Origin: Candidatus Zixiibacteriota bacterium
GTDB lineage: Bacteria > Zixibacteria > MSB-5A5 > GN15 > JAAZOE01
Direction: 5' to 3'
Assembly: GCA_036480375.1 (NCBI GenBank)
Contig: JAZGGI010000042.1
Coordinates: forward strand, 62,001 to 126,000
Length of the DNA stretch: 64,000 nucleotides
Below, in pieces: positions 2,592 through 18,045 of this stretch (positions are counted from its first letter, which is position 1; every line of letters begins with the position of its first letter). Both the position numbers and the translations under genes were made by a program. A model generated the notes under the pieces. That model saw only the letters and a list, made by a program, of their open reading frames with translations. It was not told the origin of the DNA and did no database searches.

Positions 2592-4982
2592 TTACATCTG
2601 AAACATATACTGCAGTTTCATGAAAAATTGCCTTGACCGGAGCCGCGTCGTCTTTTTCTCGTAATCCCCCTGGTTCATAAGTTTTGTTTTGTCAGTATCA
2701 AGATAGAGGCGGTCATAATCATAAGTCGAACCTATATAGAACAATGAAAATGGGCTCAACCGATAAGTGAGTAACGGATCAAAATCCCAGGTTTTAACGA
2801 AATCATTATATTGAGTAACGAATCGGAGAGACAGCTCGCGATTGAAATTCAAGCTCATCTTTGATCTGACGATATATCCATCCCAGAGTTCTTTCTTTGT
2901 TTCAGCGTGCTCTGCCTTGGTATAATTGATATTGCTTTCAATCAGGAGACGGTCAATCGGTTTTACATCAACCCAAAGCCAACCGCGCTTCGCATCAGCC
3001 ATTGTTAAAGCCGACCGGGCAATCTGACGGGATATTTCATATAATCCGCCACAGGAAAATCGATCGCTTGGGATGTTAAAATGGTGAAAACTGATTTTCC
3101 AGATATTGTCAAATTCAATCCCAGAATATCTTTCGCTACCTTTCCGGTATTGAATCATGAAATGGATTTGGGCCTTTTTTAATACCGCTTCATACATTGC
3201 CTCAAAAGAAGTAAATTTGTCAAATCCATCAGTGTTCCATTGCTTTTCAGCGCCAACCCAAGCCATCATATATTCAAGTAAGTCACCCTCGAATCGGTAA
3301 GTATAATTAATCCCCATGGTGGCACGACGCATATTATTCTTCGTCAAAAATCCATTTTCAAATCTAAGCGTTGGGTTCGTTTGTCGATAATCCCCATTAA
3401 TAGTTAAATCGCGGGCACTATATCTCAACTCCCCCAAAAATGCGTGCCCGCTGAATTTCTCACCATCAAAGGCTGGAGTGTGTTTATCATCAAAAGTGAA
3501 TGTTTGATAATGGTAAGGAGAGGAAATTAAATCATCGCGATATTTTTCCCACGATAACTTCGTTATATGGGGATCATTTGGTTCATTAGTGAATGATTTG
3601 ATTCCTTGATATTTAAATTGGAAATTCTTGGTAAGTCTGCTTATACCATCAACGGCAATTGCCGTGCCGGAACCGCCCTGCTTGAACCTTCTATCTGTTA
3701 ACAGTAATCCAATATATGAGCTGGAGCCCAATGAACGGTTAACGCGCAAGATATTGGAAAAGCTGGTGTCGGCCAGTAATTCAGGCGAACTGAATTCTTC
3801 AAACGGTATGATAAGAGGACTCTTTTCATCCATTGCCGCAAGATAGGCAATCGAAGTTTTTCCCAGACGAGCAGTTGTCTTGGCGGCAATGAAGGGGTCG
3901 TTAATCATTCTCGTATGAACGACATCAAACGAAGTCCTGAACAGATCGCTTCCCTCCTGAAAGAAAGGTCGTTTTTCAGGGAAATACAGAGCGGTGGTAG
4001 AATTGACGTCGATTTGGTCGGCGTCGGCCTCGACCTGGCTATAATCAGGATTGATGAAAATTTCAGACGTTATATTCGAAGAAATATTGTACTTTATACC
4101 TATAGAATAATCATCGAGTACATCATCGTTAACAAATTTCATAGAATCGATAAGAGGAAATCCCAGGGAATCGTAACCTGTCGAATAAATCCCGTGCTCG
4201 CCCGATTGAGTGCCCGTCACCGCCGCAATAATTTCAATTCCTTTTCCGGGAGAAACTCCTTCAATTCCGGTTAAATAACCCCATTGACAAGCAAAGCACG
4301 GATCGTCTCGATCTCTGGCTGCCCAGGAAATTTTGTGCCTTGTTCCGCGCCTATGATTGCGCCAGAAATCAATCCGCCAGGTTTGTTTCTCTTGCCGGGG
4401 AAATCGTAAGCTGGAAAATGGAACAGCCATTTCCACCTGGAAACCCGAATCGGTAATTTGACCGGCCGATTCCCAGATTAAATCATAGCTTGCATCCTGA
4501 CCATAATTCAACGACCAGAGATCATCACCCTGAATTCCATAGGGATTAACTTTCAGGAAATATGCCATCATGCCATCGCCATATGTGTCGAGCATTATAA
4601 CAGCATTGTCGTCGGTGTTTATCATGTCCCGTTCACGAAGCGAGGTACGTATATCTTTTGGATTATCATAACAGAGAAAAGCAACATATAATCGATCATT
4701 GTCATAAGTAATAAAAACTCTGGTTTCAACTGGCGGTTTAATCTGGTCGCCGGGATAATTCTCGACAAATTTATCAGTCGTGGTTGCCGTTTTCCAACCG
4801 CTATCGTTCAATTTCCCGTCGATTTTTATTTCTCCCTGAACGCGGGAAATATTGATAGTGGGGTTAAAAACCGGCTTAAATTCTTCATCCCCCCACGCGA
4901 AATTATTACACGAAATAACTAAGACAGTTGCCAAAATAGATAGGATATGGCCCCCGGTGCCAAACTTTGGTACTGCTCTCAT
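2592..4982 (-). CDS. DUF5916 outer-membrane protein with N-terminal CBM9-like domain (copy 1)
   Basis: About 796 residues from the preferred start at 4982, which is followed by a signal peptide and preceded by GGGAGG. An in-frame ATG at 5054 would add 24 residues before the signal sequence and is less likely. Residues about 40-240 form a CBM9-like beta sandwich (EIKIDGKLNDSGWKTA). Next comes the DUF5916 core with its conserved block INPDYSQVEADADQIDVNST and FPEKRPFFQEGSDLF. The rest is aromatic-rich alternating strand sequence ending in MKLQYMFQM, typical of an outer-membrane barrel. The family's function is not established. It is a tandem paralogue of the next gene upstream (5152-7557) and of the gene at 60778. 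Confidence 0.85.
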   Translation of the reverse strand: MRAVPKFGTGGHILSILATVLVISCNNFAWGDEEFKPVFNPTINISRVQGEIKIDGKLNDSGWKTATTTDKFVENYPGDQIKPPVETRVFITYDNDRLYVAFLCYDNPKDIRTSLRERDMINTDDNAVIMLDTYGDGMMAYFLKVNPYGIQGDDLWSLNYGQDASYDLIWESAGQITDSGFQVEMAVPFSSLRFPRQEKQTWRIDFWRNHRRGTRHKISWAARDRDDPCFACQWGYLTGIEGVSPGKGIEIIAAVTGTQSGEHGIYSTGYDSLGFPLIDSMKFVNDDVLDDYSIGIKYNISSNITSEIFINPDYSQVEADADQIDVNSTTALYFPEKRPFFQEGSDLFRTSFDVVHTRMINDPFIAAKTTARLGKTSIAYLAAMDEKSPLIIPFEEFSSPELLADTSFSNILRVNRSLGSSSYIGLLLTDRRFKQGGSGTAIAVDGISRLTKNFQFKYQGIKSFTNEPNDPHITKLSWEKYRDDLISSPYHYQTFTFDDKHTPAFDGEKFSGHAFLGELRYSARDLTINGDYRQTNPTLRFENGFLTKNNMRRATMGINYTYRFEGDLLEYMMAWVGAEKQWNTDGFDKFTSFEAMYEAVLKKAQIHFMIQYRKGSERYSGIEFDNIWKISFHHFNIPSDRFSCGGLYEISRQIARSALTMADAKRGWLWVDVKPIDRLLIESNINYTKAEHAETKKELWDGYIVRSKMSLNFNRELSLRFVTQYNDFVKTWDFDPLLTYRLSPFSLFYIGSTYDYDRLYLDTDKTKLMNQGDYEKKTTRLRSRQFFMKLQYMFQM

Positions 4983-5151
4983 CTCCCTATTCCTCCCAAT
5001 CTCGGTTTTTATCTTTATATATGTATTGCTGTAAAATCCAGGGGATTCTTTCAACTCAACATTTCAAATATTAAGGACGAGCCAGAGGCATATTAGTTTA
5101 AAAAAGGCTCAAAACTTTTAGGTATTGAGCCTATCCCATGTCCGTTCAATA

Positions 5152-7557
5152 TTAGAGTTGGAATAAATACTGCAACTTCATAAAAAATTGACGGGAGCCA
5201 AGTTTGGTCCCGGCGTGTCCTGTCTCCGATGCCGGAAGGATCATATCTTTCGCATTATTAAGATTTGAGTATTTCATAAAATCATAAGTTGTACCTATGT
5301 AGAATAACGAAAAGGGAGTGAGCCGATAGGTAACCAGAGGATCAATGTCCCAGCTTTTGGAGAAATCATTATATTGCACTACAAAACGGACTGATAATTC
5401 GCGATTATATTGAACACTCAATTTGTTTCGCATCAGGAATCCCTTGAATAGCATATCATCCTTATTGTAGCGGGCAGTAGAATCGGCCGCTCGGCTTTGA
5501 GTGTATCTAAAGTCGGTTTCAATACGAATGCGGTTGGTTGGTCTGAAATCAATAAGCGCTCCTCCCGTTGTTTCATATCCCATTATCCTGGCCCCGCGTG
5601 CGATTCGATGGCCGTAATCAATACTGCAATGCAGACTAAAATTGCCGGAAGGCGTAATACTAAAACAGTTATGCACATTCCAAATATCATCAAACTGGAT
5701 TCCGGCATAGTTCTCGCGGCTGAGCATAAATAGCGGATGATAACCAATTTGTAATTTCCGCAGGCTAAGGTCGCAGGAAAAGTTCACCCATTCGTCTTTT
5801 ATCTGCCCGTCGAAGTTCCACACGCGACCTAACATTATGCTGGGACGAATTGTTTCAATTATCCCCTCATCATAGCGCAGTTGGTAGCCGCTGTTGAAAT
5901 TAACCTGACGACGATTGTTGCGCGGCTCAAATCCATTATCAAGACGAAAGGTGGGGCTGAATTCCCAATAACTTGTTTGGATATTCAAATTACGGTCGTT
6001 ATAATTGATTGCGGCTCTTAGACCGTGCCCGGTGAAAGACTCGCCATCAAATGCAGGTGTATGTTTACCATCAAAGGTAATTGCTTCATAATAATTATAA
6101 TATGAAGTATCGTTAGATACTGGGTCAATACTCATTTGCGGATCCGAGCCTAATAACGTAATTGTCGCATCATCCGGCTCATTCGTGCGCGTAGCGATAA
6201 CCTGCCCTCGCAGAGTAAAATTGCCGTTAATTCTTATATTCCCGTCGATACTGGCAATGGAACCTGAGCCTCCGCCCTTAAATCGACGATCGGTAGCCAG
6301 AAAACCGACTTGTGAATTATCACCGAAAGTTTGCCGAACGCGAATAATATTTGTAAAACTGCTATCGGCATTAAATACGGGTGAACTACTTTCATCGAAC
6401 GGGATCATAACTGGTGATTTTTCATCAAAAGCTCCCATGTAGCCGATACTGGTGCGGCCGATACGAACTGTGGCTTTGGCGGCGATAAAGGGATCATTGA
6501 TCATTCGAGTGTAAACCGCATTAAATTGACTGCGAAAGATATCTATCCCTTCCTGGAAAAAAGGCCTTTTCTCCGGGAAAAACAAAGCGGTGGTGGAATT
6601 GACATCTATTTGATCGGCGTCGGCTTCGACCTGGCTGAAATCAGGATTGATTGCCGCTTCCAGAGTAAAGTTGGAAGAAGGAGCATATTTTATTCCCAAC
6701 GACGCATCCCCGTCCATATCCTCGTTATGAAATCTTAGTGTATCAGGGAAAATATCACTACCATCATCGTCAATACTTATTTGATTTAAGGCACCTGATT
6801 GAAATCCGATGGCAGAGGCCAGAATTTCAACACCTTTGCCCGGTTCGATATTCTTAATTCCGGTCATGGTACCCCAATTACATCGCCAGCATGATTCATC
6901 TCGATCATAAGCGGCCCAGGAAATACTGTGATAACTATCACGCGAATAGTGCCTCCAGAATTCTATCCGCCATTCCTGCTCTTCTATGTTGGGAAAGCGC
7001 AACCCGGAAAAAGGCATAGCGACTTCCACCTGCCATCCGGAATCGGTTATTTGTCCTTCCGACTGCCAGACAAGATCAAATCCTCCGTCTTCTCCGTAAC
7101 CGTCAACCCCGATGGCATCATACTGAAAGCCGTAAGGATTAACATTAAACATATATGACCAGGTCGCTTCACCATAAGTATCGAAGAAAAATCCAATATT
7201 ATCGTCGGAATTTATTCGGTCGCGTTCGCAATATGAAGCGCGAACATCTTCCGGATTATCGTAGCAGAAAAAAGCCAGGTACAGGTTTTTATCATCATAA
7301 GTGACAAGCACTTTGGTATCGACTGGCGGCTTTATCTGATCGCCCGGATCGTTTTCGACAAAATGATCGGCAACGGCGGCATTTTTCCAGCCCGGATCAT
7401 TTATTACTCCATCGATTTTTATTTCCCCTGGCGCGCGGGAAATATGAATCTTTGGATGGAAAACCGGTTCATAATCATCATCAGCCGCCACAATCGTGCT
7501 TGTAGATAAAATTAAAACTAGCCCCCAAAATCCATAAAACTTCATTAATAAACGCAT
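5152..7557 (-). CDS. DUF5916 outer-membrane protein with N-terminal CBM9-like domain (copy 2)
   Basis: About 801 residues. The preferred ATG at 7557 lies 9 nt after GGAG; a TTG two codons upstream is possible. A signal peptide ends near VAAD, followed by a CBM9-like domain (EIKIDGVINDPGW) and the DUF5916 signature INPDFSQVEADADQIDVNST with FFPEKRPFFQEGIDIF. The C-terminal barrel ends in FFMKLQYLFQL. The same architecture as its neighbour and clear residue-level similarity point to tandem duplication. It has its own Shine-Dalgarno and only about 170 bp separate the copies, so co-transcription is possible. Surface location and ligand binding are inferred; no catalytic residues are recognisable. 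Confidence 0.85.
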   Translation of the reverse strand: MRLLMKFYGFWGLVLILSTSTIVAADDDYEPVFHPKIHISRAPGEIKIDGVINDPGWKNAAVADHFVENDPGDQIKPPVDTKVLVTYDDKNLYLAFFCYDNPEDVRASYCERDRINSDDNIGFFFDTYGEATWSYMFNVNPYGFQYDAIGVDGYGEDGGFDLVWQSEGQITDSGWQVEVAMPFSGLRFPNIEEQEWRIEFWRHYSRDSYHSISWAAYDRDESCWRCNWGTMTGIKNIEPGKGVEILASAIGFQSGALNQISIDDDGSDIFPDTLRFHNEDMDGDASLGIKYAPSSNFTLEAAINPDFSQVEADADQIDVNSTTALFFPEKRPFFQEGIDIFRSQFNAVYTRMINDPFIAAKATVRIGRTSIGYMGAFDEKSPVMIPFDESSSPVFNADSSFTNIIRVRQTFGDNSQVGFLATDRRFKGGGSGSIASIDGNIRINGNFTLRGQVIATRTNEPDDATITLLGSDPQMSIDPVSNDTSYYNYYEAITFDGKHTPAFDGESFTGHGLRAAINYNDRNLNIQTSYWEFSPTFRLDNGFEPRNNRRQVNFNSGYQLRYDEGIIETIRPSIMLGRVWNFDGQIKDEWVNFSCDLSLRKLQIGYHPLFMLSRENYAGIQFDDIWNVHNCFSITPSGNFSLHCSIDYGHRIARGARIMGYETTGGALIDFRPTNRIRIETDFRYTQSRAADSTARYNKDDMLFKGFLMRNKLSVQYNRELSVRFVVQYNDFSKSWDIDPLVTYRLTPFSLFYIGTTYDFMKYSNLNNAKDMILPASETGHAGTKLGSRQFFMKLQYLFQL

Positions 7558-7674
7558 ACTCAATTACTCCACAGATTTTGGTTTACTTTATTGACGATAT
7601 AGTCCTAAAAAAGGTTCAAATATTTTCCAAATTTCAGGGAAGATTTGTGGAGAAAAAGCGAGCAAAATGAATTT

Positions 7675-8868
7675 CTATTTCAAGCTGTTTTCGAGATTAT
7701 CTTTCATTCGCTGCAATTCTTTGGCATAATAGGCGTGAGAAGGCTCTTCTTCGACAGCCAGTTTCATTATCCTGACCGCCTGATCGTATTTCTTTCGCAA
7801 ATCGAGAATGCTGGCTAATTGATGATAAGCCATCGCCTTATACGCCCCGGGTTCTGCCCAGTCGGCGGCAGTGCGAGCGTACGTTTCGGCTTTGGCTAAG
7901 TTTATCTGCCGTTCGAGACACCAGGCGGCGTAACGGTAAAATCGTTTGGGATCATTTTGCCAACCTGTGCCCATGCTGAATTCCCTGGCTCTGATAGCCG
8001 CCAACGTATCCCGGGTGACATATAAAATAGTATCAATCGCGAATTCGGTGTGGGCGCTTTTGAGTTTATTATCTTTGGAGTTGGCCGTAATTTCCAGGCC
8101 AAATCTTAAATACCTTCCCAACTCTTCGGTTCTATCTTTTTTACGAGTCGCCCGTCCGAGGATTTTTATGGTCTGAACGATGTTATTGACATTTTGGCGA
8201 TTTTGTAAAACGTAGTTGGCGGCGTTCAGCAAAGTATCAAACGACAGTGAATCGGACCAGACGGCGTTGGCGGTATTGGTAAAAATCTGATAAGAATAAT
8301 CGAGCCTTCTTCCGGTAACAAGAGTTTGGACTTTTTCGTAATATTCAATTGCCTTTAAATATTGCCTTGTATCGGAATGGTATTTGGCAAGCACTAAAGC
8401 GTCCCGAAACGAGGGTGATTTTTCAAAGCGCTTTACTCGTTCATTAGTTGATGTTAAATCCGACATTGATGATTTCAGTTGAGTGACGAATCTCTGGGCG
8501 GTTGAAAAACCGGTCCAGCGTTGAATCGGTTCACCGAGATAATTGGCCAGAATAAAGACCGGATAAGTGCTTCCTACATGATAGCGGGGGGATAGTTCAA
8601 GTCCCTCTCCGTATTGCACACACATTGAGTAATGAACAACGCCTTTCAATGCGTTCATCATCGCCGCTTCACTTTCCGCTTCACGAGCGGCCAGTTCGCA
8701 GTATTCTCAGTCGTCGCGATAAAATTCAAGAAGAAGCGGTTTGCCGGTCTGTTTGGAAAGAGCCTTGGCTTCTTCCATTGATTTTGGCTCGTCCGCGAAA
8801 CCCGGGACCGCCAAATATAAAACGGCGCATAAGACAAAAAGTAATTTTCTTATCGATTCATTTCTCAT
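7675..8868 (-). CDS. Putative selenoprotein: secreted thioredoxin-fold/TPR protein with a UxxC active site
   Basis: Read with UGA as selenocysteine the frame gives 397 residues. A signal peptide (1-25, ending GFA) is followed by a thioredoxin-like domain (about 28-160) with KPLLLEFYRDD before U54-E-Y-C57 and a cis-proline loop at TYPVFIL, then a helical TPR-like region to the end. The UGA is codon 54 (8709-8707) and replaces the first cysteine of a CxxC motif. Starting instead at the Met codon at 8661 would lose the signal peptide, the first strand and the active site. A SECIS-like hairpin follows the UGA. The ATG at 8868 has no good Shine-Dalgarno. The role is probably periplasmic thiol redox or protein folding. 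The alternative is a recent nonsense mutation, but reading-frame coherence on both sides and the exact site argue against it. Confidence 0.8.
8671..8695 (-). promoter_or_regulatory. Bacterial SECIS-like hairpin after the UGA of the thioredoxin-fold gene
   Basis: On the mRNA strand ACT pairs with AGT, a 2x2 internal loop (GG/AA) follows, then CCGCT pairs with AGCGG around the loop CGTGA. The loop begins 21 nt after the UGA and has a G in its first two positions. Both features match the published bacterial SECIS consensus as I know it (loop about 16-37 nt from UGA). The fold was worked out by eye, not computed. Confidence 0.65.
8707..8709 (-). other. In-frame UGA read as selenocysteine (codon 54)
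   Basis: The codon between GAC-GAC and GAA-TAC-TGC is TGA. It sits precisely at the redox-active first position of a thioredoxin-type CxxC. In selenoprotein families UxxC is a recurrent arrangement, and cysteine homologues would be expected to read CxxC. Confidence 0.75.
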
Positions 8869-17056: not shown

Positions 17057-17087
17057 AACCGGCCGAATCATCTCGGCCGGTTTTTTT
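17057..17087 (+). terminator. Rho-independent terminator after the GlpX-like gene
   Basis: A perfect 10-bp stem (AACCGGCCGA with TCGGCCGGTT) closes a 6-nt loop and runs into seven T. It abuts the end of the convergent selenoprotein gene, whose stop codon lies in the T tract. Confidence 0.9.
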
Positions 17088-18045
17088 ATGCTTTAGAAAT
17101 TTCCAGAATAGTCCCGCCTTCGCCAGCAGTATCGATGAGATTGAGGGCTTCATTCAGGATATACAATTGCCTTTTTTCGTCATGAGGCAAACCCAACGGA
17201 CGCCCTAAAAGATGCGGAGTGGTCACTAACCGCGGCAGTGACATAGCTTCCAGAGTAGTGCAAAAGGCCTGAATGGCGATAACTACGGTGGCAATCCCGG
17301 CCTTTTCAAAGGCTCGCGCGATGTGCCCCACGGACACATGACACACCGGTCAGACGGGGATTATGATAACCGCCTCAATTTCTTCATCCTGAAATGCTTT
17401 CGTCCATTCGGGAACGGATTTTTGATTCAATAATAATTGCGAGCAGGCTCCCACAAAGGAATAAGCGTATTGACTCAGGGAACCGATAACACTTTCGTTA
17501 TGTAGTCTATTTAATAGTTTATACGGAAAGCAAACATTACTATTGGCTCGCGCTCCCCGAATATCATAACCCGCATGGCGAACCATGATATCTTTTTCTG
17601 ATATATCAAAAGGAATCTTAGATAATTCGGGCTGGAGCTTGATTGTTTCGCCTATGGTTTTTATCGCTTCTTCCTGAGTCATATTCTTGCGTCCCAGCGG
17701 TTCGGGATCGTCGCCTCTGGCAAAATGACCGGTGGAGGTGAGGAGGGTCAGTTTCATTTGTGATACCGGTTTGGCGGGGCGAGCAAATGGTTTATCGTCA
17801 TACTGCCATTTGCCTTTTGAGTCATAAGCCTTCATTTGCCATTCGGTCACATGCTCAATGATCCCATCAAAATCTTTATCATCAAACGAATCGCCGATTT
17901 TCCAGAGCAACTGTTGAAAGAAATCAGCCGCCAATTCCGGGGTGAGATTGGATAGAAATTTGAAATTCAAATCAGTACGCGATCCATAGCTGAATGAATT
18001 TTTAAAATCCTCAAATGATTCCGGTTTTGTTGTTTTCTTATTCAT
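17086..18045 (-). CDS. Putative selenoprotein of the glycine/sarcosine/betaine reductase subunit B (GrdB-like) family
   Basis: Read through one UGA the frame gives 319 residues. Residue 232 is the UGA, in the context IIIPV-U-PVCH followed by VGHIARAFEKAGI. This matches short GrdB-family proteins, which I recall carrying PVUPxCHQTVG or PVCPxCHQTVG at this place. Upstream family features include VRHAGYDIRGA (about 172-182), VCFPYKLLNRL and YSFVGA. True GrdB subunits are longer and sit with GrdA/C/D; none is nearby. This is therefore a stand-alone, probably redox-active, family member of unknown substrate. A strong SECIS-like hairpin follows the UGA. Routine calling would split it into 17350-18045 and 17086-17346. 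The start at 18045 follows AAGGAC. Confidence 0.85.
17321..17339 (-). promoter_or_regulatory. Bacterial SECIS-like hairpin after the UGA of the GrdB-like gene
   Basis: On the mRNA strand ATGTGTCC pairs with GGGCACAT (eight pairs, one of them G-U) around the loop GTG. The loop starts 18 nt after the UGA and its first base is G. This is a textbook fit to the bacterial SECIS model; it was folded by eye. Confidence 0.8.
17350..17352 (-). other. In-frame UGA read as selenocysteine (codon 232)
   Basis: The TGA lies between GTC and CCG-GTG-TGT. The downstream reading frame continues without interruption for 87 codons and aligns with the same family as the upstream part. The motif formed is UPVC. 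Confidence 0.85.

Follow-up and report, generated by a model that had tools for sequence, protein, structure and literature searches.

The question raised by this locus is whether a TGA codon within an otherwise open reading frame is a stop or a codon for selenocysteine (Sec), and what kind of protein would result. The window, i.e., the whole 64-kb stretch of DNA analyzed here, belongs to a genome of 3.59 Mb, which is 97% complete. With TGA translated as U, positions 7675-8868 (-) encode one protein of 397 aa in which codon 54 is the single TGA. Without read-through, the product ends after the first strand of the thioredoxin domain, and the next ATG of the gene (ORF 8661-7675) lies past the active site. 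Standard gene callers would truncate these genes at the TGA, thereby losing the catalytic residue. The features of the gene are listed in Table 1.

Table 1. Features of the thioredoxin-TPR gene and its product; positions refer to the window.
Feature	Position	Strand	Remarks
Selenoprotein gene (very probable), apparently exported thioredoxin-TPR protein	7675..8868	-	397 residues, Sec at 54, ends in TAG
UGA codon 54, very probably read as selenocysteine	8707..8709	-	first position of the UxxC motif (U-E-Y-C); TGA in 38 homologues, a Cys codon in 12
Cys57, resolving position of UxxC (+3 from Sec)	8698..8700	-	invariant (50/50)
SECIS-like hairpin core	8676..8690	-	CCGCU 8686-8690, loop CGUGA 8681-8685, AGCGG 8676-8680
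Likely signal peptide	8794..8868	-	hydrophobic N-terminus KLLFVLCAVLYLAVPGFA, about residues 1-25; by sequence inspection
Thioredoxin-fold domain	8470..8781	-	residues 30-133; PF13899, fold, profile matches to DsbD gamma
Pro103, cis-Pro position	8560-8562	-	invariant in homologues
TPR-like helical array	7681..8448	-	residues 141-396; Pfam and predicted model
Cys317 (TPR part, motif W-C-L-E-R)	7918-7920	-	conserved in 48 of the 49 rows that cover this position

For the comparison with related genes, relatives were taken from whole-genome searches, since a contig scan with the single protein had yielded only three distant loci. The searches covered 132 genomes, which make up the class set and the phylum set (Zixibacteria) alike, and resulted in about 50 relatives matching over most of the length (family A). 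All 50 long matches were fetched, so that the ratio of 38 TGA to 12 TGC or TGT codons found in the codon-54 column is free of selection bias. No other codon was found in this column, and a Cys was present three positions after the Sec/Cys site in all 50 homologues. Further in-frame TGA codons in the aligned homologues were confined to the C-terminal end and represent the regular stops of these genes. The observation is far beyond chance. The first-pass annotation had described a single TGA at codon 54 with coherent coding on both sides, had expected close homologues with Cys or UGA at residue 54, and had named scattered stops in relatives as an observation against its reading. Re-reading of the sequence and the 50 homologues bore out the first two points, and scattered stops were not seen in the aligned homologues.

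The TGA-bearing relatives span many genera. In the tree of family A, 8 changes between Sec and Cys are needed, at least 6 of which are forced by well-supported branches. Because the identical TGA occurs in 38 genes from many separately assembled genomes, a sequencing error is very unlikely.

The sequence downstream of the TGA was analyzed for a bacterial selenocysteine insertion sequence (SECIS). A hairpin with the sequence CCGCU-CGUGA-AGCGG begins 16 nt past the UGA, and its loop starts 21 nt past the UGA, as originally reported. This stretch folds at −17.2 kcal/mol compared to a shuffle mean of −11.4 (z = −2.67). Of the 38 TGA genes, 36 can form every one of the five pairs of the stem, while synonymous recoding, in which codons were swapped at each gene's own usage, led to an expectation of 5.0 and a maximum of 13 in 2000 trials. 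The two remaining TGA homologues have just four of the five pairs. Among the 12 Cys genes, the stem is fully paired in one (0.4 expected). With regard to the SECIS search suggested earlier, a SECIS-like hairpin is kept in the TGA forms and lost in nearly all Cys forms. Furthermore, a G is located within the first two loop bases in all 38 TGA genes, and the codons +6 to +10 after Sec take ranks 1, 2, 3, 4, and 6 in synonymous conservation among 290 columns.

The loop-closing pair of the TGA genes was found to be U-A (31), C-G (3), U-G (3) or A-U (1), and the pair at the base of the stem C-G (30) or U-A (4), while the remaining four differ from both. The stem varies with compensation, pair changes at the loop-closing and base positions keeping the pairing. 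The mean folding energy of the family A TGA genes differed only mildly from that of synonymous shuffles (mean z −0.64); the specific stem test is much sharper than average folding energy. The peptide Ala-Ala-Arg-Glu-Ala (AAREA) is conserved in genes with Sec and varied in those with Cys, which is as expected if the RNA hairpin constrains the peptide and the constraint is relaxed after Sec loss. A SECIS-like hairpin persists in two Cys genes: the one at locus L048 retains GCCGCTCGTGAA with a broken stem, resembling a decaying SECIS, and in the one at locus L068 the stem is still intact. Both are probably recent changes from Sec to Cys.

A broken gene, in which a nonsense mutation or an error of sequencing or assembly has placed the TGA in what is otherwise an ordinary thioredoxin-TPR gene with Cys, is very improbable. 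Plain Cys codons do occur at this position in 12 relatives, but the same TGA, without other disruption, recurs in 38 relatives belonging to many genera, and the hairpin is maintained by synonymous selection in the TGA genes only, which refutes a broken gene in substance.

The genome was also searched for the Sec machinery. The selA and selB genes are adjacent (C7:14981-18189), and a tRNA-Sec with the anticodon tca (UCA) is present. The selD gene (locus L020, 1399-2469, -) itself encodes a selenoprotein with the active site GAGUASK. All four components whose presence was to be checked according to the first-pass annotation were therefore located in the same genome. The Rfam scan and the tRNA scan of the 64-kb window gave no matches. 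Within the phylum, selA was above the cut-off in 116 of 132 genomes. No contrast was observed between selA presence and the Sec or Cys state, a comparison that is uninformative in a phylum where selA is nearly universal.

TGA terminates 12 of the 40 other long ORFs of the window; the raw count of 13 out of 41 includes the TGA of a second selenoprotein gene in the window. TGA is thus an ordinary stop here, which argues against a reassignment of the code. The amino acid cannot be told from an in-frame TGA by itself, and in principle a general change of the code, a suppressor tRNA or regulated read-through could account for the translation of the codon instead of Sec; this is highly improbable, since TGA functions as a regular stop in the window and also terminates some members of family A, Cys is the sole alternative residue in the relatives, and the genome encodes the Sec machinery with a UCA tRNA-Sec. 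The gene very probably encodes a selenoprotein.

A scan of the window for TGA read-through revealed only two genes that were convincing by eye, the one at 7675-8868 and the one at 17086-18045 (-). The latter, located 8 kb from the thioredoxin-TPR gene, is a GrdB/PrdB-like selenoprotein gene of 319 aa with an in-frame TGA at codon 232 (context IIPVUPVCHV). Its product scored 40.1 bits with PF07355 and 82 bits with TIGR04483, the latter below the cut-off of 300.

The same genome encodes a diverged, exported-looking thioredoxin-TPR selenoprotein paralogue (family B; locus L002, G000:C12:61168-61623, ORF 1024-2040, -), which has a SECIS-like hairpin of its own and in which the motif SFWRIDUPWC is followed by TPRs. 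Among 42 relatives fetched, the site is TGA in 28 and Cys in 14; as the TGA cases were the first to be fetched, this ratio is biased. Of the 28 TGA genes, 23 matched a general SECIS criterion (7.1 expected), as did 2 of the 14 Cys genes (1.4 expected). The sequence of these hairpins is unlike that of the family A hairpins.

The proposed combination of thioredoxin and TPR domains is backed by both Pfam and a high-confidence structural model. Thioredoxin_7 (PF13899) was found at residues 30-76 with 27.4 bits (cut-off 27), and TPR repeats were detected near residues 345-378. The AlphaFold2 model, based on a 39-row alignment, has a pLDDT of 94.8 and a pTM of 0.86. It consists of an N-terminal helix (2-19) and a thioredoxin fold (residues 31-135), followed by helix pairs up to the C-terminal end. 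U54 starts the helix 55-66, and the invariant Pro103 is placed right before the strand 104-108. Using Foldseek, TPR arrays and thioredoxin domains were matched separately (2LST, 1VRS, 3F9U), and no good full-length match to the model was obtained. The profile search against the PDB identified a putative disulphide isomerase (2KUC), DsbD gamma domains (2FWE, 4IP1) and TPR proteins. In the TPR part, Cys317 is a possible third redox residue.

From these data, the following course of events can be proposed. SelB with Sec-tRNA(Sec) would bind the hairpin that closely follows the UGA, and given this hairpin and the machinery present, selenocysteine would be inserted at codon 54. The 397-aa product would then be exported, as its N-terminus suggests. 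Sec54 would attack client disulfides or oxidised thiols and Cys57 would resolve the intermediate, with the TPR array holding the client or a partner. DsbD may re-reduce the protein: the genome encodes a full-length DsbD, a possible source of electrons. No VKOR was found in the genome. On balance, we favor the main role of an extracytoplasmic thiol-disulfide (selenenylsulfide) reductase, which is moderately probable.

The gene neighborhood contributed nothing to this assignment. An operon-based function was dropped, because no conserved partner was found in the flanks of the relatives examined. Just downstream of the selenoprotein gene, two DUF5916/CBM9-like proteins, each about 800 aa long, are encoded in tandem at 2592-7563 (-); they are not conserved as neighbors among the relatives whose flanks were examined.

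Alternatively, the protein could be a selenoprotein whose main work is not disulfide reduction, for instance a TPR holdase with a client-protecting thioredoxin domain, i.e., an extracytoplasmic counterpart of CnoX, or a peroxidase or isomerase. CnoX has the same overall architecture, combining thioredoxin and TPR domains in a redox-linked holdase (PMC8129009). However, it works with the cytosolic GroEL/ES, whereas the Zixibacteria protein looks exported. Among the best PDB matches listed, nothing close to CnoX/YbbN was found in sequence or fold, CnoX (3QOU) being absent from the best 60 sequence and the best 50 fold matches, and the profile matches are to DsbD gamma domains. Such a role is therefore possible but rather unlikely, and the reductase is kept as the preferred reading.

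UxxC selenoproteins of the thioredoxin fold are a well-known kind. The thioredoxin-TPR gene represents a real and new selenoprotein family of this already known type. In NCBIfam release 20, no model scored above its cut-off for the protein. A 2026 inventory comprises 119 prokaryotic selenoprotein families, among which thioredoxin-fold proteins with UxxC are numerous and a single Trx7/PDZ protein has CxxU (PMC13188914). A thioredoxin-TPR UxxC family is not among the 119, and the terms "TPR" and "tetratricopeptide" are absent from the text (PMC13188914). The initial impression that a secreted thioredoxin/TPR selenoprotein corresponds to no described family is consequently supported within the contents of these two sources. 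A literature search for selenoproteins in Zixibacteria found no relevant reports.

The list of roughly 119 selenoprotein families grows by at least one and probably by two. With about 50 genes and at least 6 to 8 changes between Sec and Cys, the family is unusually good evolutionary material, and it offers a testable case of selenium in extracytoplasmic thiol chemistry in a little-studied bacterial phylum. More broadly, it may be that the Zixibacteria use Sec nearly throughout and that their two or more exported thioredoxin-TPR selenoprotein families together constitute a selenium-based system for thiol redox chemistry outside the cytoplasm, Sec and Cys having been exchanged repeatedly and SECIS gain and decay being readable from the sequences; we consider this wider view evenly balanced.

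Compared to known systems, the C-terminal (gamma) domain of DsbD and other Thioredoxin_7 proteins resemble the thioredoxin-TPR protein in the thioredoxin fold, in an active-site pair (CxxC) and in the extracytoplasmic thiol chemistry predicted for the latter. They differ in the lack of Sec and of a TPR array, and DsbD gamma also in being part of a membrane protein. The CnoX/YbbN chaperedoxin likewise has a thioredoxin domain followed by a TPR domain (PMC8129009), but its partner GroEL is cytosolic and its site is occupied by Cys or Ser. The Trx7/PDZ selenoprotein NF041199 also contains a Thioredoxin_7-type domain, with Sec in CxxU and PDZ instead of TPR; the score of our protein was 12.9 bits with a cut-off of 300, and membership was rejected. 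The thiol:disulfide interchange selenoprotein has UxxC in a thioredoxin fold as well. It is listed as a PF13098 protein, whereas the thioredoxin-TPR protein has a TPR array and reached 20.8 bits, below the PF13098 gathering cut-off of 27, so that this assignment was also rejected.

Among 395 genomes of the Bacteroidota, the phylum of the Flavobacteriales locus L052, no profile match with an in-frame TGA was found, and the best six loci, which were read, all have WCxxC. The exported-looking Cys thioredoxin-TPR proteins of this phylum (e.g., at L150, L151 and L153) resemble the Zixibacteria protein in their signal-peptide-like N-terminus, the thioredoxin domain, the helical or TPR-like C-terminal part and a size of about 360-410 aa. 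They differ from it by WCxxC in place of UxxC, and the similarity is mainly located in the first 160-190 residues.
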